Below are positions 44,860-64,000 of a stretch of 64,000 nucleotides of DNA, piece by piece (the first letter of the stretch is position 1; each line of letters starts with the position of its first letter). Source of the stretch: an uncultured Flavobacteriaceae bacterium. Its GTDB lineage: Bacteria; Bacteroidota; Bacteroidia; Flavobacteriales; Flavobacteriaceae. The stretch spans positions 124,001 through 188,000 of the forward strand of contig CANMFO010000005.1 in assembly GCA_947497245.1 (NCBI GenBank), in the 5' to 3' direction. Position numbers and translations under genes: made by a program. A model generated the notes under the pieces. That model had not been told where the DNA came from. It searched no databases and saw nothing but the letters and a program-made list of their open reading frames with translations.

Positions 44860-44866
44860 GTTTCGA

Positions 44867-46072: not shown

Positions 46073-46119
46073 AAGATCACATGCTATACTATAAATGAAC
46101 CATTGCCGTACGGCCAATG

Positions 46120-48390: not shown

Positions 48391-48422
48391 GATATGGATT
48401 TGGCCCATCGGGCCATATTGTC

Positions 48423-50219
48423 TCAATCTGCCGTTTGACCGAGCACTTTAAGTATTTTTCCGAACACCTCATCGTTCCCATAAACGCCCTGAAACTCCCC
48501 GGATTTCGGACCATAGGCAAATAGGGGCACTAGGGCACCGGTGTGGTCATGGGTCGTAAAATCCCCTTCGATCATATAGTTTTCAAGATTTCCCTGTGGA
48601 ATGCTGAAACCGGATGTCTCATGGTCTGCGGTCACGATCACCAGTGTATTTTTGGAACTATCCGCAAATTTGACCGCCTCGGTTATGGCGCGGTCAAAAT
48701 CTATCCCCTCGGAAACAATGCCGGGCACATTGTTATGGTGCCCGTAACTGTCTATTTTTCCCCCTTCGACCATTAGGAAAAAAGGCGCGTTCTTGGAGCT
48801 CAAAAAGGCCAGTCCATGCTTGGTGGCCTCCGCCAGTACGTTTCCACGGCCTTCGAGAATGCTCGGCGACGTGCCCTTTGAAATAAAATGGCCGACCCTT
48901 TTTTCCTTGCTCCGGGCAATGGCGCCCGTACTTTCCAATGGGCGAAAGCCCATCTCGGTGGTTTTCTTTTGGAAGGTTTCCGAATTTCCGCCCACCAATA
49001 GTGAAAGCTTGCTCTTTGATAGGTCCGAAAGGATGCCGCTCTCGTCCGACCGGTCTTTTCTATGGGCGTAGAAGGCTGATGGCGTCGCACCGGTGATATC
49101 GTCGGTGGTAATACACCCCGAGACAAAACCGCGCTCATGGAGCAGTTCGGTGATGTTGGTCAAGGGCCTGCCCAGGGTATCGACCCCTATGGCGCGGTTG
49201 TTGGTCTTGCTTCCCGTGGCCAGGGCCGTGCCCGCGGCGGCCGAATCGGTCGTAAAATCGTCCGCGGACTGTGTTTTCAGGAAACCGATGCTCCTTAGCT
49301 GGGTGAGCGTCAACGCCCCGCCATTGGCCAGTAGCGAGGACGATATCTGGGTAAGTCCATTGCCGTCGCCGATCAGGAGGACCACGTTCCTTACGGGAAC
49401 GTCCTTTTGGTCGGTCGCAAAGGAGGGGGCGTACACTTCGGAACGGACCCCGTTGAAGTAGATGCGATCGTCCAAGGTGTTCAGATAGGCCGCCGAGGCG
49501 TAGGGCAGGTCGGTATTGATGAAGTCGACCCCGAGGTCCCTGAACGCCTTCCAGGCCGACTTGGAGTCGGGGGTGCCCCAAAACCGGAAGGGCTTGTTGT
49601 GGGCATGTGCGCTGTCGATCACCGCTTTTACCCTTTCCCGATCGGCGGCGGTCAACCTTCCCATGCCGTTCCAGGGGGAGTACTTTCTGAAGTTCAAACT
49701 GATCATGGCGACCTTGCCCCATGCGCCCCTGTGCCCGATATCCCGGAGGTCCTGGTGGTCGAAATGGATATGGGCGGGATAGTTGACATACTCGTCCGCT
49801 CTTGGCCGATTGCCCGATATGACAATGGAAATGCGTTCGTTGCCCGTGATATCGGGATAGTTTTCCAAGATGGACATCAGTTTTTTCAAACTTGAATAGG
49901 GCTCCGATTTTATGTCGACCAGCAATTGCAGTTCGCGCTGTTCCCCCAACTGTAGGGCCAACGCCTTTTGCAAGGGCCGTAGGTACAGGTTTTCAATGGT
50001 GCGGCCCTGCCTTATTTCGGATTCCCCATGTGTGGCGTACAGGGTGTCGTTCTTGAAAAAGACATCCACCTCGATGGAGCCCATGCCGTTGGCATAGGCG
50101 CTCCAGAACGGAACGTTTTGCAGATAGTCGTTGTGGGAGTGGATTTTGGGCGCCTGCGCCCTTCCAAGTTGAAGCGCGATACAAAAGATCAGAAGTGGGA
50201 CTAGGTGCTTTTTGAACAT
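48423..50219 (-). CDS. Fusion of PI-PLC/GDPD-like domain with alkaline phosphatase, exported
   Basis: A 598-residue exported protein. The ATG at 50219 (or 50222) precedes a signal peptide (LVPLLIFCIALQLGRAQ). Residues about 25-250 belong to the PI-PLC/GDPD TIM-barrel family: PKIHSHNDYLQNVPFW (catalytic His), GSIEVDVFFKND, YATHGESEI and FINTDLPYA. Residues about 275-595 are an alkaline phosphatase: VVLLIGDGNGL (metal Asp), TDSAAAGTALATGSKTNN (Ser nucleophile), SYGHHNN and VTADHETSGF. A phosphodiester could thus be opened by the first domain and the monoester hydrolysed by the second. The operator at 50336 lies 117 bp upstream. Confidence 0.88.
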   Translation of the reverse strand: MFKKHLVPLLIFCIALQLGRAQAPKIHSHNDYLQNVPFWSAYANGMGSIEVDVFFKNDTLYATHGESEIRQGRTIENLYLRPLQKALALQLGEQRELQLLVDIKSEPYSSLKKLMSILENYPDITGNERISIVISGNRPRADEYVNYPAHIHFDHQDLRDIGHRGAWGKVAMISLNFRKYSPWNGMGRLTAADRERVKAVIDSAHAHNKPFRFWGTPDSKSAWKAFRDLGVDFINTDLPYASAAYLNTLDDRIYFNGVRSEVYAPSFATDQKDVPVRNVVLLIGDGNGLTQISSSLLANGGALTLTQLRSIGFLKTQSADDFTTDSAAAGTALATGSKTNNRAIGVDTLGRPLTNITELLHERGFVSGCITTDDITGATPSAFYAHRKDRSDESGILSDLSKSKLSLLVGGNSETFQKKTTEMGFRPLESTGAIARSKEKRVGHFISKGTSPSILEGRGNVLAEATKHGLAFLSSKNAPFFLMVEGGKIDSYGHHNNVPGIVSEGIDFDRAITEAVKFADSSKNTLVIVTADHETSGFSIPQGNLENYMIEGDFTTHDHTGALVPLFAYGPKSGEFQGVYGNDEVFGKILKVLGQTAD

Positions 50220-50527
50220 CATAATGGGAGAATGGTTAAATTTCGTCGGACCTGAGGCGGACACAAAATGGTGCCATGACCGTCTAGGACAATACGAATA
50301 TAGGATTCCTGGCGATGTTCGCACAGATAAACTGCATGCAAACCTTTGCATTGTTAAAGTTCCCGATCAAAATGTGGAAAAAGATTTTATTTCTACTTTA
50401 ACCGCAGATTCACCTATGTCCATGGGGTATGGGCCCGGAGCAACGATCGGTCTGGAAAGCGATCACGACCGAGCCATACACCCCATGGAGGGGAGAATGT
50501 TTCAAGCAACACGAATTTGACCAGACC
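50220..50527. other. 308-bp divergent region between the two phosphate-ester hydrolase genes
   Basis: It contains the LacI-type palindrome at 50336-50351, near its middle. Possible -7-like boxes are TACTTTA (50394, plus strand) and TATATTCG (about 50300, minus strand), neither with a convincing partner. No RNA gene recognised. Confidence 0.6.
50336..50351. promoter_or_regulatory. LacI-type operator, copy 1
   Basis: ATGCAAACCTTTGCAT, palindromic but for its central CC, is identical at 52313 and 60974. It lies between divergent hydrolase genes and could control both. The likely binder is the LacI protein encoded at 59914. Confidence 0.75.
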
Positions 50528-52183
50528 ATGAAAATGATCCTATTGAGAATCAAACCTTTCGCCCTTATCCCGTTGTTGATCGCGGTGGGCTGCACGAGCA
50601 GGGAAAAAAACAGGTACAAAGCCCTTGAGAACCAACATGTCATAGTGATCGGTGTGGATGCCATGAGTCCCGATGGCATTATAAACGCCGATACGCCCGT
50701 ACTGGACAAAATTATGGAAAACGGTGCCCATACCCTGAATGCCAGGGGCGTTCTCCCCACCAGCAGCAGTACAAACTGGGCCTCCATGGTTTCCGGCGCA
50801 GGTCCGGAGCAGCATGGGGTGACCTCGAACGGATGGGAGCGCGACGATCATGGCATACCGCCCATGCTCACAGGGAGGGAAGAGATTTTCCCCACTATCT
50901 TTGGGGTATCGCGGGCGCAGCGCCCGGAACTCGAAATGGGCGCCATCTACACCTGGGACGGGTTCGGAAGGCTCATTGAACGGAGCGCACTGAGCTACGA
51001 TACGACGGAACCAACGGACGAAGCGACCTTGGAGAAGGCCAAAAGCTATATCCAGGAAAAAAAGCCGGACTTTCTCTTCATTCATTTTGACGACGTGGAC
51101 CATGTCGGGCATGATATGGGCCACAAGACACCGGCGTACTACGAGGCGGTGTCCAAGGTCGATGGGCAGATAGGGGCGATCGTCCAAGCGACCAAGGACG
51201 CCGGGATATTCGATGAAACCGTGTTCATCATCTCCGCGGACCACGGGGGCATCGGTTATGGCCATGGCGGGGAAACCCTGGATGAACTTGAGATACCCTT
51301 TATGGTATACGGCAAGGGCATTAAAAAAGGGTATTCGATCAAGCACGCGGTCTATACCTATGACAATGCGGCCACAGTGGCCACGCTGCTCGGCCTGAAG
51401 CAACCCTATGCCTGGATCGGAAAACCGGTAACCAGTGCTTTCGCAGGTGCCCCGGAACCGGAACTGGAGGGGCAAAAGACCCTGATCGCAAGCCCCGTGA
51501 TCCATCCGAAGCCCAATCTGTACGACCCGGCAGGCGGTCTCTTTATCGATGAACGGCCAAAAGTGGTGATCGAGTCGCGGAACAATTCCGAGATCCGGTA
51601 CACCCTGGACGGATCGGTACCCGACGAAAGCTCGGAGCGGTACACAGGGCCCTTTGAACTGTCCGAGAGCGGGGTGGTCACGGCCAAGGCATTTCTGGGG
51701 GACCAACAGGAGAGCAACCCGACCACCGCATACTTCAGGCTGGTCAAAAAAGATTCCGGGAACGGGATACACTATTCCTATTTTGAGGGCATGGATTGGA
51801 AATTTCTTCCCGTGTTCGAAAACCTGGGGCCGATCAAGAAGGGAACGGTATACGAGTTCCGGATCGGCGATATCAACCAGCGGAGCGGCCAATTCGGTAT
51901 CCGATATACCGCGTCGCTAAAAATAGAACGGCCGGGTGAATACCGATTTTACCTCAATTCCGATGATGGAAGCAAATTGTACATCGATGGAAATCTGGTC
52001 GTGGACAACGATGGCGGCCATGGCACCATAGAACGGATGGGGAGCGTTTCACTGGACAAGGGAATGTACCCGATTACGGTGGACTACCACAACCAGGGCG
52101 GAGGCGCATGGCTGGATGCCTTTTACAAAGGCCCGGGCGTGCCCAAACAGATCATTCCGGCAAATGTACTGTTCGTGCCTTGA
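50528..52183 (+). CDS. Alkaline-phosphatase-superfamily phosphodiesterase lipoprotein with chitobiase-C-like and PA14 domains
   Basis: A 551-residue lipoprotein; ATG at 50528 precedes LLIAVGC. Residues about 25-330 are a type I phosphodiesterase/nucleotide-pyrophosphatase-like domain: VIGVDAMSPDG (metal Asp), LPTSSSTNWASMVSG (the nucleophile region, Ser in place of the usual Thr), FDDVDHVGHDMGH and ISADHGGIGYGHGG. A chitobiase/hexosaminidase C-terminal-like domain (IRYTLDGSVPDESSERYTG) follows at about 355-425. A PA14 domain (LNSDDGSKLYIDGNLVVDND) closes the protein at about 445-550, both probably binding a glycan. It should split phosphate esters at the cell surface; operator copy 1 is 177 bp upstream. 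Confidence 0.87.
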   Translation: MKMILLRIKPFALIPLLIAVGCTSREKNRYKALENQHVIVIGVDAMSPDGIINADTPVLDKIMENGAHTLNARGVLPTSSSTNWASMVSGAGPEQHGVTSNGWERDDHGIPPMLTGREEIFPTIFGVSRAQRPELEMGAIYTWDGFGRLIERSALSYDTTEPTDEATLEKAKSYIQEKKPDFLFIHFDDVDHVGHDMGHKTPAYYEAVSKVDGQIGAIVQATKDAGIFDETVFIISADHGGIGYGHGGETLDELEIPFMVYGKGIKKGYSIKHAVYTYDNAATVATLLGLKQPYAWIGKPVTSAFAGAPEPELEGQKTLIASPVIHPKPNLYDPAGGLFIDERPKVVIESRNNSEIRYTLDGSVPDESSERYTGPFELSESGVVTAKAFLGDQQESNPTTAYFRLVKKDSGNGIHYSYFEGMDWKFLPVFENLGPIKKGTVYEFRIGDINQRSGQFGIRYTASLKIERPGEYRFYLNSDDGSKLYIDGNLVVDNDGGHGTIERMGSVSLDKGMYPITVDYHNQGGGAWLDAFYKGPGVPKQIIPANVLFVP

Positions 52184-52312
52184 CCATTTTCCCTTAATTT
52201 TTTGGAAATTCTATGTTCCAGACCACTTTTTACCGGTTTCGGGAAACCCGTAACGGATATTCGGGAACGACGTTCCCTAAAGTTTAAATAAGGGGCAACC
52301 CCATGTAAATCT

Positions 52313-52328
52313 ATGCAAACCTTTGCAT
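52313..52328. promoter_or_regulatory. LacI-type operator, copy 2
   Basis: ATGCAAACCTTTGCAT, identical to the copies at 50336 and 60974. It ends 9 bp before a possible -33 TTG and 180 bp before the ECF sigma start, so it would control the sigma, FecR and SusCD genes. Confidence 0.75.
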
Positions 52329-52337
52329 AGCATTTCC

Positions 52338-52368
52338 TTGCCGTTCCCTCGTTTAATTAATATCTTAA
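52338..52368 (+). promoter_or_regulatory. Possible promoter of the ECF sigma gene
   Basis: TTG (52338) and TATCTTAA (52361) have a 20-bp spacer, close to the Bacteroidota TTG/TAnnTTTG pattern. The -7 box has two mismatches. The leader would be about 130 bases long. Confidence 0.3.
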
Positions 52369-52507
52369 TGTTCGGAAAGCTAGGGAAGTACCGATTTTTT
52401 TGGAGCCCGGGCACACATATTGTTCTGATAACGAAAACATAAGATCGAGCTTACGGCCATCCGGCCATTTTGGTATAACATTGCGGTAAAACAAAGAGTT
52501 AAGGAAA

Positions 52508-53095
52508 TTGGAAGAGTGCAATATATATAGGGAAAAGATTCTTGAGGATCTTAAAAATGGCGATAAATATGCCTTCAAGGTGATTTTTGACTCGTACCAT
52601 AAAAGACTCTATCCCTTTGTTTTTTCGATGACGAAATCCAGTCCCGCGACCGAAGATATTCTTCAGGAGGTATTCCTGAAAATCTGGTTGCACAGGGAAA
52701 CCTTGGATTCACAAAACTCCCTGAGCCCGTACATTTTTACGATTGCCCGAAACCTTACCTATAACTATTTGAGAAGCGTGGCCAACAATGAACAACTGAA
52801 ACGGCAAATGTGGGAAAACCTTTCGGTCTTGGACCGAAAGACCGAAAATTTACTCCAGTTCAAGGAATATGAAAACATCCTGAGCGCCATTCTAACAAAG
52901 CTGCCCGAGCAAAAAATGAAGATTTTTATCCTTTCCAAGCGACAGGGAAAGAGCAATCAGGAGATTGCCGAACTACTGGAAATTTCCCCGAAGACCGTCA
53001 AAAACCACCTTTGGAAGGCACTGCAACTCATTCGGGTCCAACTACAACCTTATATCGCCCATGTCCTAATGGTGTGTTTGCCCCTCTTTGGGTAG
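52508..53095 (+). CDS. ECF sigma factor (FecI-like)
   Basis: A 195-residue sigma factor. There is no ATG at the beginning; TTG at 52508 (reading MEECNIYREKILEDL) is the only start that keeps region 2. Region 2 is SSPATEDILQEVFLKIWLHR, and region 4 is SNQEIAELLEISPKTVKNHL within a LPEQKMKIF context. With FecR 126 bp downstream and an STN-domain SusC, it forms a cell-surface signalling chain that turns on transporter transcription when ligand arrives. The rare start may keep its level low. Confidence 0.9.
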   Translation: MEECNIYREKILEDLKNGDKYAFKVIFDSYHKRLYPFVFSMTKSSPATEDILQEVFLKIWLHRETLDSQNSLSPYIFTIARNLTYNYLRSVANNEQLKRQMWENLSVLDRKTENLLQFKEYENILSAILTKLPEQKMKIFILSKRQGKSNQEIAELLEISPKTVKNHLWKALQLIRVQLQPYIAHVLMVCLPLFG

Positions 53096-53221
53096 CACCG
53101 CCCCCTCGTTTACAATTTTTTTTATAAAAGACCACTTTGATCTGGGACTTTTGGTGCTTTCAGGTGTATTACATGTATAGCACCCTTGTTAAACAATAAT
53201 TTGAGCTGAAGAAAACTGGGA

Positions 53222-54442
53222 ATGAAGAAACCGTTCGATCTAAAGAAAACATTCGAAAAGTTTGTGAACAATACGCTAACAAAATCGGAGTACGATACCT
53301 TAATGGGGTGTATTGAAAAAGGGGAGAACAAGGAAGAACTGGAGCGGATACTGGACGAATTTCTGCGCGAGAGCGAGGCTGCTGACGGGGAGGGTACCCC
53401 AGAGGACCTTTACCAAAAAATTAGGGTGGAAATGGAGAACAAGAAAGTATATGGATCGCAGAAAAAGGTACGGTCGATGAAAAAAAAAGGAAGGGCATTT
53501 TGGTATGGTGCGGCCGCATCTGCCGTTCTTTTGGCGGGCTTGTTCTATGGCCTCCAAGAGGAACTTTTCTTGCCTGAGCCGGTTGCTCCCACCGTCAAAG
53601 TAGTAGACCCGAACGCCATTACCCTGAAACAGGGCGATGGGAATGTCAGTGTGGTCGATGAAAACGGGGAACGAAATATCGTGGACACCGAAGGAAACAT
53701 AATCGGGTCGCAAAAGGGGAACCAATTGAACTATAAGGTGGTCAAGGACGGCGTCCCACGGGAACTGGTCTTCAACGAACTGACCGTTCCGTATGGCAAA
53801 CGGTTCGACCTGGTGCTTTCCGATGGCACACAGATAAAACTGAATGCGGGCACTTCGATCAGGTACCCCGTACAGTTTATCAAGGGAAACGAAAGAAAGG
53901 TGTACCTGAGGGGCGAGGCCTATTTTGATGTGGCCAAGGATGAACAACATCCCTTTGTCGTGAATGCGAACGAAGTCAACGTGCAGGTTTTGGGCACCGA
54001 GTTCAACGTGTCGTTCTACCCGGAGGATGCCAACATAAACACGGTTTTGGTGGAGGGCGCGGTCAATTTATACGAGGAGAAAAATCTTGATGCCGTAACT
54101 GTCCTGACCCCCGGGAACATGGCTTCCTGGAACAGGTCGGAAAAGGAGATGTCCGTAAAAAAAGTGGACATAAGCCTGCATACGGCTTGGAAGGACGGGA
54201 TATTGCTCTTCAAGGGGACCCCGTTCAACAGTATCCGCAAAAAACTGGAACGCCACTTTGACATCTCCATAGAAAACCAGTACCCATTTTTGGAAGACCA
54301 GGTCTATACGGCCACCTTCCAGGAGGAGGGCATTGAGGAAATATTGAATGCCTTTAAAGAGGACACTCCCTTTTCATACGAAATGGGGAATGGCGGAATA
54401 ACCATATTGAACACTGACAGATCTACTGACCAAAAACGATGA
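53222..54442 (+). CDS. FecR-family anti-sigma factor
   Basis: A 406-residue inner-membrane protein. A cytoplasmic N-terminal part (residues about 1-88) would hold the sigma factor. One membrane segment follows at about 92-110 (FWYGAAASAVLLAGLFYGL). The periplasmic FecR domain is at about 190-290 (LTVPYGKRFDLVLSDGTQIK, LRGEAYFDVAKDEQHPFVV, VLGTEFNVSFYPED), and a C-terminal DUF4974 domain is at about 320-395 (NSIRKKLERHFDISIENQ). The DUF4974 part contacts the STN domain of the SusC next to it. Confidence 0.93.
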   Translation: MKKPFDLKKTFEKFVNNTLTKSEYDTLMGCIEKGENKEELERILDEFLRESEAADGEGTPEDLYQKIRVEMENKKVYGSQKKVRSMKKKGRAFWYGAAASAVLLAGLFYGLQEELFLPEPVAPTVKVVDPNAITLKQGDGNVSVVDENGERNIVDTEGNIIGSQKGNQLNYKVVKDGVPRELVFNELTVPYGKRFDLVLSDGTQIKLNAGTSIRYPVQFIKGNERKVYLRGEAYFDVAKDEQHPFVVNANEVNVQVLGTEFNVSFYPEDANINTVLVEGAVNLYEEKNLDAVTVLTPGNMASWNRSEKEMSVKKVDISLHTAWKDGILLFKGTPFNSIRKKLERHFDISIENQYPFLEDQVYTATFQEEGIEEILNAFKEDTPFSYEMGNGGITILNTDRSTDQKR

Positions 54443-54580
54443 TGCCTATGAAATGAACCCTTTGAAGCTTAGATGACAAGAATCTCTTTATATAAAAAGG
54501 CCGGAAAATGTTGCAGCATTTCCCGACCTGTACTGAAGATTCAACCAAAATTAAGTCGAATCAACAACCTCAACGAAAAT

Positions 54581-57500
54581 ATGAAAAAAATCAGCTCTTG
54601 CGGATCGTTTCTCTACGAACGGTTTTGCAAACACAACTTGAAAATGAAACTAACGACGATCTTAATCATAGTTTCCCTATTCCAGATTCAAGCCAACACC
54701 TATTCCCAAAAAGCGAAGGTCACCTTGAATCTAGAAAATGTAACTGTGGAAAAGGTGTTCTCCGAAATAGAGGCACAATCAAAATTCAGGTTCCTGTACA
54801 ACCATGAAAAGGTAAATGTAAACAGGAAAGTATCCATTAACGCGGACAAGCTTCCCATTTCAGATGTTCTGGAGTCCATTTTTAGGAATACGGACATCTA
54901 CTTCCTGGTGAAGCGGAAACAGATCATTTTGAAGACCGGAAAAGTTAGGCCCCCTGTTCCCATAGCGGAAGAAGAGGACCAGGAACTACAGATTAGCGGC
55001 ACCGTAACGGACGGGGACGGAGTGCCCTTGCCAGGGGCCAATATACTTGAAAAGGGTACCACCAATGGTACACAGAGCGATTTCGACGGCAATTTTTTGA
55101 TAACCGTTGCCGATGAAAATGCGGTTCTGGTGGTCTCCTATATTGGTTTTGCGCCGCAGGAAATCCCTGTAAACGGCCAAAGCAATATTACCGTCCAGAT
55201 GCAGGCGGACGCCAGTGACCTGGAAGAGGTGGTCGTAGTGGGCTATGGAATCCAGAAAAAATCCGATGTTACCGGCTCCATCGCTTCCATAAAGAGCGAA
55301 AATTTTAACAAAGGGGTTGTGGCGAATCCCGGCCAACTTTTACAGGGCAAACTGGCGGGTGTCAATGTTTCCAATGTAAGTGGGGAACCTGGCGCTGCCC
55401 AAAATATCATTATCCGTGGTGTGGGGAGTTTGCGATCGGGCACAACACCACTTTTCGTGATCGATGGTTTTGTCATAGACAATGCCAGTACCGGGGTGGC
55501 CTCAAACCCCTTGAACTTTATAAACCCGCAGGATATAGCTTCTATTGACGTGTTGAAAGATGCTTCCGCGGCAGCAATTTATGGAGCGCGGGCGGCCAAT
55601 GGGGTAATTGTGATCACCACCAAAAAAGGAGTGGCGGGGAAAACAGAAATGAATTTGTCGATATCCACGGCAATATCCTCCATAGCAAACCCAATGGACG
55701 TGTTCAGCGCCAGTGAATTTAGAAATCAGGTGGCAGCGGTCGGAGGTACCCTATTTGATGGGGGTGCGGATACCGATTGGCAGGACGAACTGACCCGGAC
55801 CGGTGTTTCCAAGAATGTCAACTTTTCCATGAGCGGAGGCGCTTCGGATAAGTTTTCCTATTATGTTTCTACCGGTTTGGACGATCAAGAGGGTACCTTT
55901 AACAACAGTGCTTTAAAACGATACTCTGGTCGGGTGAATCTGACCCAAAAGGCACTGAAAGGACGTTTCAACGTAGATTTCAACTTAACCGCTTCCCGAA
56001 CGGTAAACGAAAGACCGGACACCGGATCGATAGTAGTGGATGCATTGCAATTGAACCCCACCATACCGGTATTCACCAATGGGGAACCCACTTTTTTGGA
56101 TGAAAGACTGAACCCTGCTGTCCGTAATCGGATTTTCACCGATGAGGCCATCAGCAACCGTATTTTAGCGAATATCCTACCCTCATTGGAAATTATAGAC
56201 GGACTGACCTATAAATTGAACCTGGGTATCGACTATGCTTCCACCAACCGCGATGAACAACGTATTCCTTATACACTGTTGGAAGGTTTTGAGGACGGTT
56301 TTTTGAACACCACCTCCACAATCAACAGCAATACCTTGATCGAAAACACTTTGACCTATAACTTCAGTCAGGGCAAGCACAACGCAATCGTATTGGTAGG
56401 ACATTCCTATCAGGAAACCACCTTCGAGCGAAAGCGACTTGAACTGGACGGATTTGCCGACAACGGCATAGAACCCAGGTACCAAGATCAGATCAGTACA
56501 GAGGTTCTTCCCACTACCCTGGAATCAGATGCTTTTAAAAATGAACAACAGTCTTTTTTCGGCAGGTTGAACTATACCTATGACGACAAATACTTGTTAA
56601 CGGCCACCATGAGGGCGGATGGTTCATCGCGGTTTGGCGCGAACAATAAATATGGGTATTTCCCCTCGGTTGCCTTGGGATGGAATATTACCAAAGAAAG
56701 TTTCCTGGCCGATAACGATGTGTTCAATACCCTGAAGTTACGTGCAAGTTGGGGCCAGACCGGGAATCAGGACGGGCTCGCCAGTAAAGTAAGTTTGGCA
56801 AGTTTTATTGATTCCAAGATTGAAAATGATACCTATCCCCTAAACCCGAATGCCAGTAGCTTGGACGATTATCCCTTTGGGACCATTGCGGTGCGTACCC
56901 CGGACCCTGGTCTTCAGTGGGAGGTCAGTACACAGACCAACGTGGGCTTGGACTTTGCCCTGTTCGGTAACAAGATAACAGGAGCGTTGGACTATTTCAA
57001 CAAGGTAACCAGTGATGTGCTGCATCTGTCCAATAGAATAGATCCAATACAACCTACGGTACAGTTTTGGACCAATATTCCCGATATGGAAATCAAGAAT
57101 ACAGGGGTGGAGTTCGCACTGGACTATCGAGGTAATTTTGGCGAAGATTTTACCTTCAATATTGGCGGCAATATATCATATACCGACAATAAGGTGGTAG
57201 ACTCCCCATTTGCGGTCATTACCACAGGAGTTGCCCAGGGTGCCGGGCAAACAGGAGCCACCATCAATGGCTATATCAACGATGAGCCTATAGGTGCCTT
57301 TTATATGAAGGAGTTTATCGGTATCGGTGCCGATGGGTTGAATCAATTTAGGGACGTGGTCCCCGATGGGGAATCTTTGGACAATGACAGAATTGTGGTG
57401 GGGAGCGCATTACCTGATGTTCTTTATGCATTTTATTTTAGTTCCAATTATAAGAATTTTGACTTTGAGTTGAACTTCAATGGGGTTTCCGGCAATAAGA

Positions 57501-57892
57501 TCTATAACCATACGGCGATGACATTGTTTTCCAATGGGCAGTTGAGTAGAAGTCTGAATACCACCGATTTTGCCGTTCAGTTTCCCAATGAAGACCTGAG
57601 CAATTCCAACGAGGTTTCTACCCGTTATCTGGAAGATGGTAGTTTCCTGCGCTTGCAGAATGCCACCTTGGGCTATACACTGGATCCAAGCAATGTTGGA
57701 TTCGGGGATTGGGTAAGCAATATCCGCATTACCGTAACAGGGCAAAACCTGTTCGTGATCACGGATTATTCGGGTTTTGATCCAGAGGTAAATACGGGCA
57801 ATGAATCGAATGGCACGCAAACCTTTGGTATCGACCGGTTTACCTATCCTTCCCCAAGAACATTATTGTTGGGCCTTAATGTATCTTTTTAA
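54581..57892 (+). CDS. SusC-family TonB-linked receptor with STN signalling domain
   Basis: A 1103-residue outer-membrane receptor. ATG at 54581 is preferred over 54473; a long signal region ends near QANTYSQ. Residues about 45-120 are the STN domain (VTLNLENVTVEKVFSEIEAQ, ADKLPISDVLESIF), which reports ligand to FecR. A carboxypeptidase-regulatory-like domain is at about 130-215 (DGVPLPGANILEKGTTNGTQ). The SusC signature DLEEVVVVGYGIQKKSDVTG and plug (LQGKLAGVNVSN, AAAIYGARAANGVIVITTK) follow, then the barrel ending NVSF. Its cargo is inferred from the regulon as an inositol phosphate or related phosphodiester. Confidence 0.95.
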   Translation: MKKISSCGSFLYERFCKHNLKMKLTTILIIVSLFQIQANTYSQKAKVTLNLENVTVEKVFSEIEAQSKFRFLYNHEKVNVNRKVSINADKLPISDVLESIFRNTDIYFLVKRKQIILKTGKVRPPVPIAEEEDQELQISGTVTDGDGVPLPGANILEKGTTNGTQSDFDGNFLITVADENAVLVVSYIGFAPQEIPVNGQSNITVQMQADASDLEEVVVVGYGIQKKSDVTGSIASIKSENFNKGVVANPGQLLQGKLAGVNVSNVSGEPGAAQNIIIRGVGSLRSGTTPLFVIDGFVIDNASTGVASNPLNFINPQDIASIDVLKDASAAAIYGARAANGVIVITTKKGVAGKTEMNLSISTAISSIANPMDVFSASEFRNQVAAVGGTLFDGGADTDWQDELTRTGVSKNVNFSMSGGASDKFSYYVSTGLDDQEGTFNNSALKRYSGRVNLTQKALKGRFNVDFNLTASRTVNERPDTGSIVVDALQLNPTIPVFTNGEPTFLDERLNPAVRNRIFTDEAISNRILANILPSLEIIDGLTYKLNLGIDYASTNRDEQRIPYTLLEGFEDGFLNTTSTINSNTLIENTLTYNFSQGKHNAIVLVGHSYQETTFERKRLELDGFADNGIEPRYQDQISTEVLPTTLESDAFKNEQQSFFGRLNYTYDDKYLLTATMRADGSSRFGANNKYGYFPSVALGWNITKESFLADNDVFNTLKLRASWGQTGNQDGLASKVSLASFIDSKIENDTYPLNPNASSLDDYPFGTIAVRTPDPGLQWEVSTQTNVGLDFALFGNKITGALDYFNKVTSDVLHLSNRIDPIQPTVQFWTNIPDMEIKNTGVEFALDYRGNFGEDFTFNIGGNISYTDNKVVDSPFAVITTGVAQGAGQTGATINGYINDEPIGAFYMKEFIGIGADGLNQFRDVVPDGESLDNDRIVVGSALPDVLYAFYFSSNYKNFDFELNFNGVSGNKIYNHTAMTLFSNGQLSRSLNTTDFAVQFPNEDLSNSNEVSTRYLEDGSFLRLQNATLGYTLDPSNVGFGDWVSNIRITVTGQNLFVITDYSGFDPEVNTGNESNGTQTFGIDRFTYPSPRTLLLGLNVSF

Positions 57893-57911
57893 TCAAAAAA
57901 TTGTTTCAAAA

Positions 57912-59657
57912 ATGAAAAATAAAATAATTATAGGATTACTGGCAATAAGCTCCTTCTTAAATTGGAACTGTACCGATTTGGAAGAGGAAAGATTGGACGA
58001 AGCTGAATTTGGAGGACAGGCGGAAGTGATTAGCGGTGTCATAGCGCCAGCGTATGGCTATGTTTCCTGGGTCTGGAGGCATACAAACTACTACGGCCTG
58101 CAACTTATCCCCTCGGACGAGGCGATCCTGCCCTTTCGTGGTGGAACGGATTGGTTCGACGGCGGTAAGTTCTTGGCGACCCATCAACACAACTTTACGC
58201 CTACCAACGATCTGATCGGTGATGGCTGGAATGAGCTTGCTACCAATATTTCCAGGACATTGGCGGCCATTGAAGTATTGACCCCCCTTTCGGAGGAGGG
58301 AAATAGTGAAGCTACTTCGGCCCTGTATGAGATGAGGGCGTTGAGGGCGTATTTGAATATGCTGATGCTGGACAGTTGGGGCCTGATTCTCAAAAAAGAG
58401 GCGTCGACCGAACGTTCGGAAGTCCTTAGGGCCCAAGAGGCCATCGACTATATTGAAAGCGAACTGCTGGCGGTTGTAGATGTGATCAACACCAACTTGG
58501 GACCTGGTAGGATCAACCAGGCAGCGGTCTGGGGCTTTTTGGCCCGATTATATCTCAACGCGGCGGTATATAGAGATCCATACGGTACACCCAATTTTAG
58601 CACGGAAGACATGGGCCGTGTGTTACAGTATACCGATAACATTATCAATTCGGGGGCCTATTCATTGTCTCCAGAGTACTTTGACCTGTTCAATGATGAC
58701 AACAATAGCAACGCCGAGTTGATTTTTGCCCTGGATCAAAGAGGTATTTTGAGAAGGGAACACAGTCGGTGGGCGTACTGGTCCATTGCCGGTTCCATGT
58801 TTCCTAGACCGGAGTTCCCAAGTGCCGATGGCACCGACGGTCCCGCTTTTACCTCTGACTTTATACAGACCTGGATCGATGCCTATGGAGCTGTAGATCC
58901 CGCTGAGGCGGATGCACGGTTTTATCAACAGAACACCATTGTCCCTGACGCGCTACAAGATCTGACAGGACTTTCGCCCTTGAACGATGAAGATCACTTT
59001 TATTGCATTGTTCCCGAAGAATTTGAAATGGACAGAGGAATCATACGCGGTACTCAATGGGGACCTCGAAAAGGTGAAGATGGTGAGTTTCTTACTTGTG
59101 ACGGTGGTGAAGTTCGGATTTATCCTGTTTTACAGAGAAAGGGCAATGGCCCCGATAGGGATGTGGGCTATGTGAACCACGTCCTGGACGTTAACTTTAC
59201 CAACGAGGGTTCATTTCACAATACCGGTTACCGCTGTTCCAAATACCAGTTTAGCCGCACCTCGCCGAATGGCAACAATTTTAGTAGTGTGGACCTGGTG
59301 TTGATGCGGTTGGCCGAGATTTATTTGATGCGCGCAGAGGCTAAATTAAGGAATGGGGATGCGGCCGGTGCTTTGGCAGACGTCAACATGGTTAGGGCAT
59401 CGAGAACGGCCCGCCCAGCACAAACCCCGGCAGCATTGACTTCCCTTGATTTGGACATCCTTTTCCGCGAGAGGGGTTTTGAGCTCTATTGGGAAGGCTT
59501 TAGACGGGGCGACCAAATACGTTTTGGTAAATACGAAGATTCGTGGACCGATAAGACCGATTCCGATGTGAACCGAAGATTGTTCCCGATTCCGCAAAGT
59601 GCCGTTGATGCCGCTTCGGGCATAGATGGCTTCTTGGAACAGAATCAGGGATATTAG
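57912..59657 (+). CDS. SusD/RagB-family nutrient-binding lipoprotein
   Basis: A 581-residue lipoprotein; ATG at 57912 starts the signal, with the Cys in LNWNCTDLEEE. Typical SusD parts are ALYEMRALRAYLNMLMLDSW, the helix EIYLMRAEAKLRNGDAAGAL and RERGFELYWEGFRRGDQIRF, which mark the classical SusD branch. The SusD gene at 11641 is of another branch. It forms the lid of the transporter encoded 19 bp upstream and binds the ligand at the surface. A terminator-like hairpin follows its stop. Confidence 0.94.
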   Translation: MKNKIIIGLLAISSFLNWNCTDLEEERLDEAEFGGQAEVISGVIAPAYGYVSWVWRHTNYYGLQLIPSDEAILPFRGGTDWFDGGKFLATHQHNFTPTNDLIGDGWNELATNISRTLAAIEVLTPLSEEGNSEATSALYEMRALRAYLNMLMLDSWGLILKKEASTERSEVLRAQEAIDYIESELLAVVDVINTNLGPGRINQAAVWGFLARLYLNAAVYRDPYGTPNFSTEDMGRVLQYTDNIINSGAYSLSPEYFDLFNDDNNSNAELIFALDQRGILRREHSRWAYWSIAGSMFPRPEFPSADGTDGPAFTSDFIQTWIDAYGAVDPAEADARFYQQNTIVPDALQDLTGLSPLNDEDHFYCIVPEEFEMDRGIIRGTQWGPRKGEDGEFLTCDGGEVRIYPVLQRKGNGPDRDVGYVNHVLDVNFTNEGSFHNTGYRCSKYQFSRTSPNGNNFSSVDLVLMRLAEIYLMRAEAKLRNGDAAGALADVNMVRASRTARPAQTPAALTSLDLDILFRERGFELYWEGFRRGDQIRFGKYEDSWTDKTDSDVNRRLFPIPQSAVDAASGIDGFLEQNQGY

Positions 59658-59687
59658 TAGTTTTGTTAGTTTAGTTTTGATAAGGGT

Positions 59688-59718
59688 GGGCAGTTCATTG
59701 CCTGCCCTTATTGTATTT
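59688..59718 (+). terminator. Terminator-like hairpin after the SusD gene
   Basis: GGGCAG (59688-59693) and CTGCCC (59702-59707) pair over an 8-base loop, followed by the T-rich TTATTGTATTT. It would separate susCD from the LacI gene. Confidence 0.5.
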
Positions 59719-59913
59719 CAAATACGCAGTTTTTCGCTCGTTGGGCCCCTCCCGATTAAATTGGGTCCGCCATCCTTTGGAGATTCCAGCGAGAACTGTT
59801 TTTTTTTCGTATTTTGGATTTGGTATTGCAAATGTCCGGTCTCGAGGTCCGCGGTACATGTCCGAAGGCCCGAAAGGGAAAGTGGAGCTTGAAAGGTTAA
59901 ATATTGGTATATC

Positions 59914-60939
59914 ATGAAAAAGGGTCGCGTAACAATCACGGATATTGCCCGTGAGCTCAATATTGCCCCCTCCACGGTTTCGAGGGCCTTGAAGGACCAT
60001 CCCGCCTTAAAAAAGGAGACCAAGGAAGCGGTGAAGGCTTTGGCCGAGAAATTGGATTATCAGCCAAACCTTTTGGCGCTGAACCTTTTACAGAAAAAGT
60101 CAAACACCATCGGGGTGATCGTCCCGGAGATTACCAGTCACTTCTTCTCCGCCATAATTACGGGCATCCAAGATGTGATCGGCACTTCGGATTACAATAT
60201 CATGATATGTCTTTCCAACGAATCTTTCGATGAGGAAAAGACCTTGATCGAGAAATTGTCCAAACTGCCGGTGGACGGCGTGCTGGTGTCCCCATCCTCC
60301 GAAACGAAGGACTTTGACCATTTTCGACGCCTTCAAAAAAATGGTACCCCCGTGGTGGTCTTTGACAGGGATTGCCCGGGATTGGAATCGGACAAGGTTT
60401 TGGTCGATGACTACTCAGGGGCCTTTCAGGCAGTGGAATACCTTATCCGGTCGGGTTGCAAGAGAATTGCGCACTTGGGGGGACCCGTGAACCTGAGTAC
60501 AACAAAACATCGCCTTTTGGGATACCTCGATGCGCTGGAAAAAAACAAGGTGCCCGTTCAGAAAAAGTATATTGTGCACGTACCCGGATTTTCACATAAA
60601 GATGGCCTTAAACCCACTAAAAAACTATTGAGACTGGAAGACCCACCGGACGCCATTTTTGCCATGAACGACAACATTGCCATCTCCGCAATGCATATTG
60701 CGGAAAAATTGGGATTTGGGATCCCCGGGGACATTTCGATCGTGGGTTTTGACGACCAGCCCAATTCCTCGTACTTTACCCCCTCGCTGTCAACGGTCTG
60801 GCAGCCGGTCTATAGTATCGGAATGCTCTCGGCACGGATTCTGTTACATCGATTGGACGAGCCGGACGCCCCATTGGAATTTAGACATGAAAGCTTTAGG
60901 CCGGAACTGGTAATACGGGGATCTTCAAGGAAAATATGA
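59914..60939 (+). CDS. LacI/GalR-family transcriptional regulator
   Basis: A 341-residue regulator. The N-terminal HTH is ITDIARELNIAPSTVSRAL (residues about 8-26), followed by the hinge with YQPNLLALNLLQKK. The sugar-binding part starts NTIGVIVPEITSHFFSAII, with DAIFAMNDNIAISAMHIAEK and SIVGFDDQPNSSYFTPSLST later. It stands between the SusCD genes and the inositol operon, and one of three identical palindromes lies 35 bp after its stop. It is therefore the best candidate for the protein binding ATGCAAACCTTTGCAT. The inducer is likely to be inositol or a pathway intermediate, which is inference. Confidence 0.93.
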   Translation: MKKGRVTITDIARELNIAPSTVSRALKDHPALKKETKEAVKALAEKLDYQPNLLALNLLQKKSNTIGVIVPEITSHFFSAIITGIQDVIGTSDYNIMICLSNESFDEEKTLIEKLSKLPVDGVLVSPSSETKDFDHFRRLQKNGTPVVVFDRDCPGLESDKVLVDDYSGAFQAVEYLIRSGCKRIAHLGGPVNLSTTKHRLLGYLDALEKNKVPVQKKYIVHVPGFSHKDGLKPTKKLLRLEDPPDAIFAMNDNIAISAMHIAEKLGFGIPGDISIVGFDDQPNSSYFTPSLSTVWQPVYSIGMLSARILLHRLDEPDAPLEFRHESFRPELVIRGSSRKI

Positions 60940-60973
60940 TGGAGTGCAAAGGCCGACACAACAGTGCCGGTTT

Positions 60974-60989
60974 ATGCAAACCTTTGCAT
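60974..60989. promoter_or_regulatory. LacI-type operator, copy 3
   Basis: ATGCAAACCTTTGCAT, identical to copies at 50336 and 52313, lies 97 bp before the inositol operon's first start. Its right half (TTTG at 60983) also serves as the -33 box of a probable promoter, so a bound LacI protein would block transcription. Confidence 0.78.
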
Positions 60990-61014
60990 TGCCTTTTGGT
61001 ACGGAATACTTTTC
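60983..61014 (+). promoter_or_regulatory. Probable promoter of the inositol catabolic operon
   Basis: TTTG (60983) and TACTTTTC (61007) with a 20-bp spacer match the Bacteroidota TTTG/TAnnTTTG pattern except for the last base. The -33 box lies inside the operator. Confidence 0.45.
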
Positions 61015-61085
61015 AACACCGATTTTTTATCGTTTTTTTATGAAAGAATGCCCTTGCAGCGGTAGGCTGTTAAACTCAGGTATAT

Positions 61086-62027
61086 ATGGTGGTTTCCCCT
61101 AGAACTTTCTTTAAGAGATGTTATGGCAAATATGCCATAGCGGCCGTGAACGTTTTTACGATGGAACAGGTACTTGGTCTGTTCCGTGCGGGGCAAAGGG
61201 CCAATGCACCGTTTATTGTACAGACCACCCCGGTGGCCCGGAATTATGCCCATACCGATATGCTGTTGGGAATGATCGATTCGGCGTCCAGGATATATCC
61301 CAAAACGGTCTATGCGGTCCATTTGGACCATGGCGACCAGGAACATGCTTTTGATGCGGTGGAATCGAACAAATACAACTCTGTGATGATCGATGCTTCC
61401 CACCACGATTTTGGGACCAACGTGCAAAGAACACGTGCCGTGGTCGGGAAAGCACATGAAAAAGATGTGGTCGTGGAAGCTGAATTGGGCGTACTGAGTG
61501 GTGTGGAGGACGATATTTCGATTGATGAAAAACACGCAAAATATACCCAGCCTTCACAAGTTAGGCAGTTTGTACAACAGACCGATTGTGATAGTCTGGC
61601 AGTGGCAGTGGGCACCAGCCATGGCGCGTATAAATTTTCAGGTGGCCAAGGGATTCAGTTCGATATACTGCAGGAAATTCAGGAATGCCTCCCAGGATTT
61701 CCCATTGTGCTCCACGGGGGGTCCGCTGTGGACAAGAAAGAAATAAACAGAATAAACCGCAGCGGTGGCACCCTGAAAGAAGGGGCAGCGGGAATTTCCC
61801 CGGAAGAGATCGTCAAATCGATCCAATACGGTATCTGCAAGATCAACATCGCAACGGATACCAGACTGTTGTGGACGAGGGTGCACCGGGAGTTTTTTAA
61901 GGAGACCCCTGAACTTTTCGATCCCATTGTACCAGGGAAAAAATACATGGAGGCCTACACGGATTTTATGTTGCAAAAATTCGAACTGTTGGGAGCCACG
62001 GGCAAAGCAAATGAATTCATTAAATAA
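61086..62027 (+). CDS. iolJ: Class II ketose-bisphosphate aldolase, probable 6-phospho-5-dehydro-2-deoxygluconate aldolase
   Basis: A 313-residue zinc-dependent aldolase. AIAAVNVFTMEQVLGLFRA, the zinc block VYAVHLDHGDQEHAF, NSVMIDASHHDFG, VVVEAELGVLSGVEDD and IVLHGGSAV follow the fructose-bisphosphate aldolase family. In the inositol pathway this enzyme splits 6-phospho-5-dehydro-2-deoxygluconate into malonate semialdehyde and dihydroxyacetone phosphate. That role is given here by the neighbours (iolB, iolC, iolD), not by a specific motif. It is first in the operon, 8 bp before iolB. Confidence 0.85.
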   Translation: MVVSPRTFFKRCYGKYAIAAVNVFTMEQVLGLFRAGQRANAPFIVQTTPVARNYAHTDMLLGMIDSASRIYPKTVYAVHLDHGDQEHAFDAVESNKYNSVMIDASHHDFGTNVQRTRAVVGKAHEKDVVVEAELGVLSGVEDDISIDEKHAKYTQPSQVRQFVQQTDCDSLAVAVGTSHGAYKFSGGQGIQFDILQEIQECLPGFPIVLHGGSAVDKKEINRINRSGGTLKEGAAGISPEEIVKSIQYGICKINIATDTRLLWTRVHREFFKETPELFDPIVPGKKYMEAYTDFMLQKFELLGATGKANEFIK

Positions 62028-62035
62028 AGGAACCT

Positions 62036-62908
62036 ATGGGAAAGCAATCTCCATTACTAGTAAAACCGAAAACAGAATCGGCCGTTTATCACAGGATAAC
62101 CCCTGAATCGGCCAATTGGAACTATTTATATTTTGAAGCGCGAAAAATGGCCCGCGGAGAAACATGGGAACACGATACCCAGGACAATGAACTGGTCATT
62201 GTGCTGTTGGGCGGTAATTTTATGGTGGAAAGTGATAAGGGAAAGTGGGAGACCGTAAATGGCAGAAAGGATGTCTTTAGCGGTGTGGCACATACCCTTT
62301 ACCTGCCCAGGCGGACAAAATTTACCCTGACCGCCACCAGTGATGCCCTGGATATTGCCTATGGCTGGAGCGGATCCGATGGGGACTTCCCCGCAAAATT
62401 CGTTACTCCCGAGGAGACTCCAGTGGTTATTTTCGGAGGCGATAATGCGACCCGCCAGTTCAACGACTTGGTACCTCCCGGTTTCGGGTGCCATAGCATT
62501 GTGGTAAGGGAGGTATACACCCCATCAGGGAATTGGAGTTCTTTTCCGGCCCACAAACACGACGAACGTATTCTGGCAGAGGACGGCACCGTGTTGGAGC
62601 CCATCCAGGAAGAAACCTATTTCTATAAATTTCAAAAACCTGAAGCGTATGCCATTCAACAGGTGTATACCAAAGATCGGTCGCTGGACGAGATTGTAAG
62701 GCCCCGGCACGACGATGTGGTCATGATTCCAAAGGGATTTCACCCTGTGGTGGCCGAACATGGTTTTCACTGCTATTACCTCAATTTTCTGGCGGGTACG
62801 GATCAATGCCTGGCGAATACCACCGACCCCGATCACGAGTGGATATATGGTTCCTGGGCCTCTCAGGACAAAAGACTGCCCCTGGTTACCGCAGAGATGA
62901 ATAAATAA
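62036..62908 (+). CDS. iolB: 5-deoxy-glucuronate isomerase
   Basis: A 290-residue cupin-type isomerase. Matching family segments are YLYFEARKMARGETWEHDT, GNWSSFPAHKHDER with the metal His residues, ETYFYKFQKPEAYAIQQVY and VMIPKGFHPVVAEHGFHCYY. It converts 5-deoxy-D-glucuronate into 5-dehydro-2-deoxy-D-gluconate in the cytoplasm, the step before the kinase encoded 8 bp downstream. The length and order are as in other Iol operons. Confidence 0.92.
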   Translation: MGKQSPLLVKPKTESAVYHRITPESANWNYLYFEARKMARGETWEHDTQDNELVIVLLGGNFMVESDKGKWETVNGRKDVFSGVAHTLYLPRRTKFTLTATSDALDIAYGWSGSDGDFPAKFVTPEETPVVIFGGDNATRQFNDLVPPGFGCHSIVVREVYTPSGNWSSFPAHKHDERILAEDGTVLEPIQEETYFYKFQKPEAYAIQQVYTKDRSLDEIVRPRHDDVVMIPKGFHPVVAEHGFHCYYLNFLAGTDQCLANTTDPDHEWIYGSWASQDKRLPLVTAEMNK

Positions 62909-62916
62909 GACGACAG

Positions 62917-63927
62917 ATGGCTAAAAAATTTGATGTTATCACTTTCGGAAGGTCCTCAATCGACCTGTACTCCCAGAATATCGGTTCCCCCTTCAATGAT
63001 ATTCAAGGCTTCGATGCCTTTGTGGGCGGTTCTCCTTTGAATATTGCCGTAGGTTGCGCAAGACTGGGGGTGAAAACAAGCTTGCTCACCGCAGTGGGCG
63101 ACGATAAGGTGGGGGAATTTATTGTGAACTTTCTGGATAGGGAAGGGGTGAATACGGACTGTGTCCCGATAAAGGACACGGCCCGAAGCAGCGCGGTGGT
63201 ATTGGGGATAGAACCACCGGATAGGTTTCCCTTGGTATTTTACCGCGACAATGCCGCCGACAGTCAGGTCGATATCGATGATGTGGACAGGGCCAATATT
63301 CCGGAGCATCGGATCTTGCTGATCAATGGTACGGCCATGAACATGGAACCCTCAAGAAGCGCAACCTTCTATGCCGCGGAAGTAGCCGGAAAAAACAATG
63401 TCGGGGTAGTTCTGGACTTGGATTTCCGGGCGGACCAATGGCACGATTACAGGGCCTACGGAATAACGATGCGTGCAGTACTGCCACGGGTAAAAATAGC
63501 GATCGGCACGGAAGAGGAAATACTGGCCGCGACCATGGAGAATACCTCCCAGGTAACCATAAAGGATCAGCAAATATCGGCCCCGGAAATCAAAGGGGAT
63601 ATAGACGGATCCATAGAGCGTTTGTTGGCGACCGGAATAGAAACCTTGATAGTCAAAAGGGGAAAGGATGGTGCGAGCATCTACGGAACGGATGGTGCAA
63701 GGCAGGATGTACCGGGATTTCCCGTGGATATTTTGAACATTCTCGGCGCGGGCGATGCCTTTGCCAGCGGATTCCTCTATGGCGTTCTGCAAGGCTGGGA
63801 CCTGTACAAAGCCTGTCGGATGGGAAATGCCAGCGGGGCGCACGTGGTGACCCAGAAGGGATGTGCCAACTTCATGCCCACCTTGAAGGAATCTTTGGAT
63901 TTTATTGAAAAAAACGGCGGATTTTAA
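62917..63927 (+). CDS. iolC: 5-dehydro-2-deoxygluconokinase
   Basis: A 336-residue pfkB-family sugar kinase. FDVITFGRSSIDLYSQNIGS is the IolC-type start, FVGGSPLNIAVGCARLG the substrate-binding region and NILGAGDAFASGFLYG the ATP/anion-hole motif with the catalytic Asp. It phosphorylates 5-dehydro-2-deoxygluconate, giving the substrate of the aldolase encoded two genes upstream. It follows iolB by 8 bp and precedes iolD by 12 bp. Confidence 0.93.
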   Translation: MAKKFDVITFGRSSIDLYSQNIGSPFNDIQGFDAFVGGSPLNIAVGCARLGVKTSLLTAVGDDKVGEFIVNFLDREGVNTDCVPIKDTARSSAVVLGIEPPDRFPLVFYRDNAADSQVDIDDVDRANIPEHRILLINGTAMNMEPSRSATFYAAEVAGKNNVGVVLDLDFRADQWHDYRAYGITMRAVLPRVKIAIGTEEEILAATMENTSQVTIKDQQISAPEIKGDIDGSIERLLATGIETLIVKRGKDGASIYGTDGARQDVPGFPVDILNILGAGDAFASGFLYGVLQGWDLYKACRMGNASGAHVVTQKGCANFMPTLKESLDFIEKNGGF

Positions 63928-63939
63928 ATTATAGTTGAA

Positions 63940-64000
63940 ATGGATGTAAAAAAACTTACGGTGGCACAGGCCACCATAGAATATCTGAAAAATCAATATG
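63940..64000 (+). CDS. iolD: Start of 3D-(3,5/4)-trihydroxycyclohexane-1,2-dione acylhydrolase, cut by window edge
   Basis: Only the first 20 codons lie in the window (MDVKKLTVAQATIEYLKNQY). LTVAQA..xFLxNQY is how IolD, a thiamine-diphosphate enzyme that opens the inositol-derived ring, normally begins, and the position after iolC supports it. The length and active site cannot be checked here. Confidence 0.7.
   Translation, partial: MDVKKLTVAQATIEYLKNQY

Follow-up and report, generated by a model that had tools for sequence, protein, structure and literature searches.

Outer-membrane SusC/SusD pairs grouped with phosphoesterases are already described in Flavobacterium johnsoniae, whose two phosphate utilisation systems (PUS), PUSI and PUSII, are built on PusCD and induced on depletion of inorganic phosphate (Pi); in the accessible part of that report PUSI comprises a metallophosphatase, a PI-PLC-C1 protein and an extracytoplasmic function (ECF) sigma factor, PUSII comprises PusCD2, FecR and PhoA1 with domains pf00245 and pf13653, and phosphodiesters such as lipid head groups are the proposed substrates (PMC8115612). 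Inositol catabolic (iol) clusters are rare in the family (2% of 810 Flavobacteriaceae species), with an iolB-C-D-E order reported for Flavobacteria in the portion of the survey at hand (PMC9430895), and LacI-family inositol regulators are known, seven IolR groups appearing in a table of a partly accessible study (PMC4052901). Here we analyse a 64,000-nucleotide stretch of DNA from an uncultured Flavobacteriaceae bacterium (the window, G000:C5:124001-188000, where G stands for a genome, C for a contig and L for a fetched locus stretch), in which phosphoesterase genes, an ECF/FecR/SusCD unit, a LacI-family regulator gene and an iol operon lie together. We judge, with a probability of roughly 0.7, that these genes form a LacI-controlled regulon that would obtain inositol from phosphate-ester compounds and burn it, the substrate, regulation and transport being predicted from sequence; its yield, on our best reading, would be both carbon and phosphate.

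The SusCD-phosphoesterase half of the locus appears to be related to the PUS module of Pi starvation. It shares with PUS a SusCD pair accompanied by FecR or an ECF sigma factor, an alkaline phosphatase with pf13653 and a metallophosphatase; PhoA1 of F. johnsoniae has both Pfam domains of the fusion enzyme of the window, a likeness of domains; and a Flavobacterium metagenome-assembled genome (L254) carries SusC-SusD (72%)-fusion enzyme in an arrangement matching the PUSII locus-tag order, from which we infer PUS orthology (PMC8115612, accessible part). By this resemblance that half is already known, so the preliminary description's remark that its author knew of no SusCD system described for such a purpose has to be narrowed: SusCD with phosphoesterases is a PUS, and the new part is the coupling of a PUS-like module, under a LacI operator, to inositol catabolism. 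PUS differs from the locus in being induced by Pi starvation, and neither iol genes nor a LacI operator is mentioned in that part of the report (PMC8115612). Like the surveyed iol clusters, the locus has the iolB-C-D-E order, within a complete iolJBCD-A-E-G set, and unlike the locus the survey's main text is without the terms LacI and TonB (PMC9430895); the terms Bacteroidetes and Flavobacteri are likewise absent from the main text of PMC4052901. The coupling of a SusCD module to inositol under LacI was undescribed in the literature searched, in which subscription journals are largely uncovered.

A repeated operator precedes the hydrolase, SusCD and iol units

The 16-mer ATGCAAACCTTTGCAT occurs in three identical copies in the window: at 50336..50351, between the divergent genes for a GDPD-like/alkaline phosphatase fusion (GDPD-AP) and a phosphodiesterase; at 52313..52328, 5' of the ECF sigma-FecR-SusCD genes; and at 60974..60989, 5' of iolJ. 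A fourth copy lies in the right flank (L005, the continuation of the same contig in the same genome) at L005:13906-13921 (C5:197905) and precedes the gene for a secreted metallophosphatase. An identical 16-bp palindrome had been claimed before each of three transcription units; the three identical copies stand, but the element, with 7-bp arms flanking a CC/GG centre, is for that reason not a perfect palindrome, and its first copy sits between divergent genes. Within the window, at up to 3 mismatches, six strand matches were found against a shuffle mean of 0.90 and a maximum of 3, none of 100 shuffles reaching six, and a search of the whole genome (5.25 Mb, 99.91% complete) that allowed up to 2 mismatches gave 12 such matches compared with 3 for a backward-read control. 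Chance occurrence of the operator copies is excluded.

Besides the three window copies, three sites of the genome keep the 14-base core TGCAAA-SS-TTTGCA: the fourth copy at C5:197905; C5:75655, where the genes that follow are a further ECF/FecR/SusCD unit; and C1:19013, which lies some 106 bp 5' of an EEP phosphatase gene that is followed by GH92; in two more matches at up to 2 mismatches the core is broken. The core is invariant in 45 site records (own genome included, some genomes counted twice), an invariance that is partly built in because the relatives' sites were selected at ≤1 mismatch. By sequence position, four operator copies precede five units near the LacI gene: GDPD-AP with a HAD phosphatase; the divergent phosphodiesterase lipoprotein; ECF/FecR/SusCD; iolJBCD-symporter-iolAEG-EEP; and the metallophosphatase. 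A LacI gene is here combined with a repeated near-palindrome before several units, conserved together with the LacI orthologue, and these copies support the earlier proposal that hydrolases, SusCD and iol share a single LacI-type operator; LacI would act through the 16-mer on all three groups.

Two of the outlying sites have surroundings of their own. Behind the C5:75655 operator, 3' of the SusCD genes, lies a metallophosphatase with a PA14 domain (L260:9094-10998). The C1 operator-like site lies in a polysaccharide utilisation locus (PUL; L067, G000:C1:8000-27900) with SusCD, a paralogue of the phosphodiesterase (52%), a purple-acid-phosphatase-like gene and PbfA (1-hydroxy-2-aminoethylphosphonate ammonia-lyase, 661 bits vs 525), and its EEP and GH92 genes stand behind the site.

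Recurrence with iol genes in relatives

Relatives were drawn from 299 Flavobacteriaceae genomes (the family draw) and from a scan of named genomes with SusD, of which the best 80 of 381 relatives were kept with flanks of up to 10 kb either side (the best-80 set); the two overlap in part, several loci coming from the same genomes. In the family draw iolB exceeds its cut-off in 16 of 299 genomes. Nine of these hold the present iol set, with LacI visible in eight and the contig of G099 cut; the other seven have a different iol set, and in the stretches fetched from them LacI, the operator (≤1 mismatch) and orthologues of SusCD or of the hydrolases were all missing. Around iol in the LacI/iol-type relatives lie orthologues of SusC/SusD, GDPD-AP, the metallophosphatase, EEP and HAD in varying orders and subsets: G006 holds most of the set within ~23 kb, without ECF/FecR, and in G292 only iol and LacI were seen within ~20 kb either side. 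LacI has seven orthologues at 62-80% identity, and the operator is present in seven of the eight LacI/iol-type relatives.

Of the 22 sites found in these relatives at ≤1 mismatch, 18 belong to units with LacI, iol, SusCD, a hydrolase or GH92; G292 has two more where a second LacI gene lies, and two are elsewhere (G212:C5 and G217:C12), no known part having been found near the former. The search returned 44 strand matches versus 2 for the backward control, with 0 to 5 sites per genome. Within the best-80 set the operator occurs in 9/12 loci that have iol or LacI in reach compared with 3/68 others, and one of these three exceptions, L247, belongs to G219, whose iol genes are ~20 kb away. None of the 19 SusD loci of iolB-less genomes in the family draw has a site at ≤1 mismatch.

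The SusD of the locus is absent from the nine other genomes of its own genus, three of these <90% complete; by this measure the locus is missing from its congeners and is an accessory block, perhaps acquired by transfer. In an 81-row SusD tree nine changes are required to account for the iol/operator label, at least six of them on well-supported branches, which means that the coupling was gained or lost repeatedly; we infer that regulator and operator moved together with the block. Some relatives also carry a second, divergent iolE/iolB/iolG/iolC-like set at 25-43% identity (L052:5092-8884 and L069).

The SusCD-phosphoesterase module is more widespread than its iol-linked form. SusD orthologues (≥53% identity) are found in 25 of 299 genomes (the locus genome and 24 others), just six of them with iolB; full-length GDPD-AP (>400 bits) is found in 32 genomes, 22 of which have SusD; and the best-80 set contains SusC in 77 loci, GDPD-AP in 53, some phosphoesterase in 59 and iol in 11. 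Genes for PI-PLC-C1, alkaline phosphatase, purple acid phosphatase or phosphonate also occur in some iol-less loci. An ACCAT-N9-ATGGT inverted motif 5' of SusC in iol-less loci proved to be coding sequence at the GDPD-AP 3' end and was discarded. In two relatives (L181:11-5968 and from L184:12803-17242 onward) the SusCD locus is bordered by the 2-aminoethylphosphonate genes PhnW and PhnY, a fragment of PhnA and a GlpT-like transporter.

Genes and predicted enzymes of the locus

Gene calls and domain scans of the window returned the gene order and strands first described, and the contiguity of hydrolases, ECF/FecR, SusCD, LacI and iol genes was confirmed. The limits first given, 48423-64000, proved too narrow on both sides: the minus-strand unit extends left into the HAD phosphatase gene (47740..48426, minus strand; PF13419/PF00702), which overlaps the GDPD-AP gene by 4 bp and probably belongs to the same operon, and the plus-strand operon runs ~7.8 kb past the window edge. 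HAD orthologues stand near GDPD-AP or iol in G217, G006 and G219, and further ones in L183, L184 and L201. GDPD-AP itself (48423..50222, minus strand; PF13653, PF00245) has a likely start with a signal peptide at 50222, in an open reading frame (ORF) listed to 50351. On the plus strand follow a type I phosphodiesterase, a lipoprotein carrying CHB_HEX_C_1 and PA14 domains (50429..52183, likely start near 50528), whose closest solved structures are PA14 proteins and the ENPP family; a FecI-like ECF sigma factor (52508..53095; TIGR02985, 145 bits, cut-off 126.4); a FecR anti-sigma factor (53222..54442; PF04773, PF16344); SusC with an STN domain (54473..57892; TIGR04056, 754 bits, and PF07660); the SusD lipoprotein (57912..59657; PF07980; ORF listed from 57801, likely start 57912); and the LacI-family regulator (59914..60939; PF00356, PF13377).

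The iol operon begins, also on the plus strand, with an iolJ-like class II aldolase gene (61086..62027; PF01116, its function assigned from context), iolB (62036..62908; TIGR04378, 297 bits, cut-off 205), iolC (62917..63927; TIGR04382, 379 bits, cut-off 300) and the first bases of iolD (63940..64000), which continues past the window edge. The remainder, iolD, an SSS symporter gene, iolA, iolE, iolG and an EEP phosphatase gene, occupies L005:3941-11793, so that the look into the right flank recommended in the preliminary description found iolG, iolE and iolA all present, and iolD as well; the whole operon reads iolJ-iolB-iolC-iolD-SSS symporter-iolA-iolE-iolG-EEP phosphatase on one strand. In the flank iolD scores 908 bits (cut-off 715), iolA and iolG exceed their NCBIfam cut-offs, and iolE, at 209 bits under a cut-off of 290, is taken as a divergent member; membership of the cluster is therefore by profile above cut-off for B, C, D, G and A, below it for E, and by context for J. 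The metallophosphatase gene follows in L005 beyond operator copy 4, on the strand opposite to the iol operon. The regulon thus contains five phosphoesterases (GDPD-AP, phosphodiesterase, HAD, EEP and metallophosphatase), and its SusC/SusD pair adjoins phosphomono- and phosphodiesterases.

The fusion had been labelled PI-PLC/GDPD, and the PI-PLC part of this label did not survive. Its C-terminal half matches the TAB5 alkaline phosphatase, and because the full-length model returned only alkaline phosphatases among the 50 structure matches listed, the N-terminal part was modelled alone (predicted local distance difference test score 85.8). The nearest folds of this half are SMaseD/PLD enzymes, then GlpQ-type GDPDs, at modest template modelling scores of ~0.5-0.6; GDPD_2 is the sole match in a profile scan, with weaker profile matches likewise GDPD; and H28, H30, E51, D53, H65 and D103 are among the residues invariant in 12 sequences, giving the His/Glu-x-Asp/His pattern in a TIM barrel. 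We take these residues to have the roles usual for GDPD enzymes and SMaseD to belong to a GDPD-like class. By fold and motif the domain is GDPD/SMaseD-like, with a putative GDPD activity. In the GDPD_2 profile and the SMaseD/GDPD folds a PI-PLC identity (PF00388/PF16670) of the fusion finds no support, and a profile search found no PF16670 PI-PLC-C1 in the genome.

Evidence bearing on inositol as the substrate

Two lines point to inositol as the purpose of the system: physical and regulatory linkage to iol, and co-occurrence of the SusD orthologue with myo-inositol oxygenase (MIOX). MIOX was counted at >300 bits, in 43 genomes, three weaker genomes over the cut-off being left out. Among iolB-less genomes MIOX occurs in 13 of 19 with the SusD orthologue versus 29 of 264 without, and iolB or MIOX in 19/25 SusD-orthologue genomes versus 39/274 others. 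Mere co-occurrence with MIOX was not accepted as proof, being due in part to genome size and seen in 8/16 for a control SusD too. With the comparison restricted to the 101 genomes of at least 3.7 Mb, smaller ones left out, iolB or MIOX is present in 16/22 with SusD versus 21/79 without (p 1.2e-4, phylogeny uncorrected), compared with 8/16 versus 29/85 (p 0.18) for a neighbouring SusD as control.

Five iol-less SusCD loci lie near genes for glucuronate isomerase (UxaC), which is the step after MIOX, and a TRAP transporter, and all five genomes are MIOX-positive. In 25 of 30 MIOX loci (the best of the search, not confined to SusD genomes) an SSS symporter that shares 60-74% identity with the one in the iol operon stands within about 1.5 kb of MIOX, a resemblance suggesting that the same kind of symporter serves both routes. 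MIOX with the SSS symporter (L150-L179) forms a second inositol cassette in the family.

GH92 and the candidate ligand

Maribacter antarcticus, Maribacter 4G9, two Ulvibacterium and one uncultured relative have a GH92 alpha-mannosidase gene placed between those for SusD and LacI; a second GH92 group lies near LacI or SusCD in G006, G219 and G112, with the operator between it and LacI in G219 and G112, and the orthologue of this second group in our genome is the one behind the C1 operator-like site. The closest solved GH92 structures are alpha-1,2-mannosidases. In the best-80 set, at >60% identity, GH92 is present in 6/15 loci with iol, LacI or operator versus 0/65 others (Fisher p 1.7e-5, phylogeny uncorrected), and independent pairs on the SusD tree point in the same direction two to three times and never in the opposite one, in numbers too small for a test; the flanks of G292, G020, L184, L185 and the Arenibacter loci showed no GH92. 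Its presence in many iol-bearing relatives points to an inositol-phosphate head group, probably mannosylated, rather than plain phytate, and the likely ligand, as read from gene content, is a phosphorylated inositol head group that is mannosylated in many relatives; the phosphoester head groups as a whole are probably mannosylated in part.

The EEP of the iol operon is close to structure 4c1r, named mannosyl-6-phosphatase, which comes from a mannan locus. Mannan-type loci resemble the present system in the SusCD, GH92 and EEP found in relatives and at C1 of the same genome; they differ in that no endo-mannanase is among the domains found in our locus and in its link to inositol catabolism. In G292 a second LacI copy (62%; L278, G292:C19) lies between two perfect palindromes of the same kind with a CG centre, with SusCD on one flank and SSS symporter-GH4-PIG-L deacetylase on the opposite flank, and our genome has GH4, a symporter and a NagB-like gene beside the C5:75655 unit, on its operator-free side.

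Eukaryotic plankton, fungi and protists commonly contain inositol phospholipids and glycosylphosphatidylinositol (GPI) anchors. Genes for mannose and glucosamine match the moieties of a GPI-like glycan, and on this ground we raise, as a tentative and on balance doubtful proposal, that the regulon dismantles GPI anchors or glycoinositolphospholipids, or else mannosyl-inositol-phosphoceramides of fungi or algae or phosphatidylinositol mannosides of actinobacteria; its glucosamine part, which comes from one genome, is weak. SusCD would then import a lipid-free phospho-glycan; GH92 and the mannosyl-6-phosphatase-like EEP would remove mannose and the phosphate on it; glucosamine would fall to PIG-L deacetylase, GH4 and a NagB-like deaminase; GDPD-AP, phosphodiesterase and metallophosphatase would handle phosphoinositol; PbfA or PhnW/Y/A would handle aminoethylphosphonate side groups; and iol would consume the inositol, one LacI operator tuning all. 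No SusCD-type locus for a GPI or glycoinositolphospholipid ligand was found in the literature searched, and recycling of inositol phospholipids or GPI anchors by particle-degrading Bacteroidota is undescribed there.

Proposed mechanism and alternatives

In the mechanism that we favour, secreted or surface phosphodiesterases would cut phosphodiesters, SusCD would move the phosphorylated ligand over the outer membrane, and periplasmic GDPD-AP, metallophosphatase and EEP would strip its phosphate. A Na+ symporter would import the inositol, which the iol enzymes would convert to acetyl-CoA, dihydroxyacetone phosphate and CO2, the end products of the iol pathway. LacI would derepress upon inositol or an iol intermediate, and the STN domain, together with ECF/FecR, would allow the ligand to be sensed at the outer membrane as well. 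One operator that links capture at the outer membrane to the removal of phosphate and the breakdown of inositol (in relatives, to mannose removal too) marks out a defined gene set, in which a phosphorus-scavenging uptake module may have been rewired into a carbon-utilisation locus. The inositol release first proposed is in its core well supported in silico; phytate is weakened as the source, and GH92 suggests a mannosylated glycolipid.

Several observations weigh against the regulon as we read it. Of the 25 SusD-orthologue genomes 19 lack iolB, and six of these 19 lack MIOX as well. The expected conservation holds in part only: several relatives share the combination of LacI, operator, iol and SusCD. 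In the 3.7-4.25 Mb band the iolB-or-MIOX association is absent (1/6 versus 13/54) and MIOX stands at 0/5, the association resting on larger genomes, and the independent-pair tests on the SusD tree have too few pairs for significance. G099 is the LacI/iol-type relative that lacks the operator, and the iol loci L185, L241 and L257 have none in reach, but in G020, to which L241 belongs, an operator precedes iolJ a little beyond the fetched flank. Within the fetched flanks no phosphoesterase was found in L181, four Arenibacter loci and L241, nor in 15 iol-less loci; in Arenibacter F26102 GDPD-AP is on a separate contig with no operator in 19.9 kb, and L196 (Arenibacter troitsensis) has LacI and the operator with no iol gene in its flank.

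The missing iolB genes would be expected if SusCD and the phosphoesterases scavenged phosphorus from many phospholipid head groups, inositol being one leaving group, eaten if present; the parts are of the same kinds as the PUSI and PUSII induced by Pi depletion (PMC8115612, accessible part), and some copies stand next to purple acid phosphatases and phosphonate genes (PbfA, PhnW/Y/A). We nevertheless consider general scavenging unlikely, for the units here carry the LacI-type operator common to iol, an element found in 0/19 iolB-less loci of the family draw and 3/68 best-80 loci without iol or LacI in reach, though the units may be under Pi control. Use of phytate or a soluble inositol polyphosphate would fit the several phosphomonoesterase-type domains that stand together with iol genes, and is improbable given that the GDPD and phosphodiesterase domains point to diesters and that beta-propeller phytase (PF02333), the one phytase family searched for, is absent from the genome, which weakens phytate as a substrate. 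An iol operon that merely neighbours an unrelated SusCD/phosphatase locus under a broad LacI regulator could account for the presence of the locus (by SusD) in one of ten genomes of the genus and for the mixing of SusD branches with and without iol/operator, with its nine changes, at least six forced by supported branches. The pairing and operator recur, however, in several genera with differing gene orders, at 0 to 5 operator sites per genome, and we regard such an accident of position as very improbable.

Neighbouring genes

Directly downstream lies a separate PUL (L005:15328-19814 and L006) with a second LacI, SusC/SusD and a symporter-like gene; it presumably also includes two GH31-like proteins and a sulfatase-like gene, identified from the look of the sequence. 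On the other side, a lanthipeptide-type cluster adjoins the locus at 42598-46129 of the window (minus strand), with a lantibiotic dehydratase (PF04738, 478 bits) and a LanC-like cyclase (PF05147).

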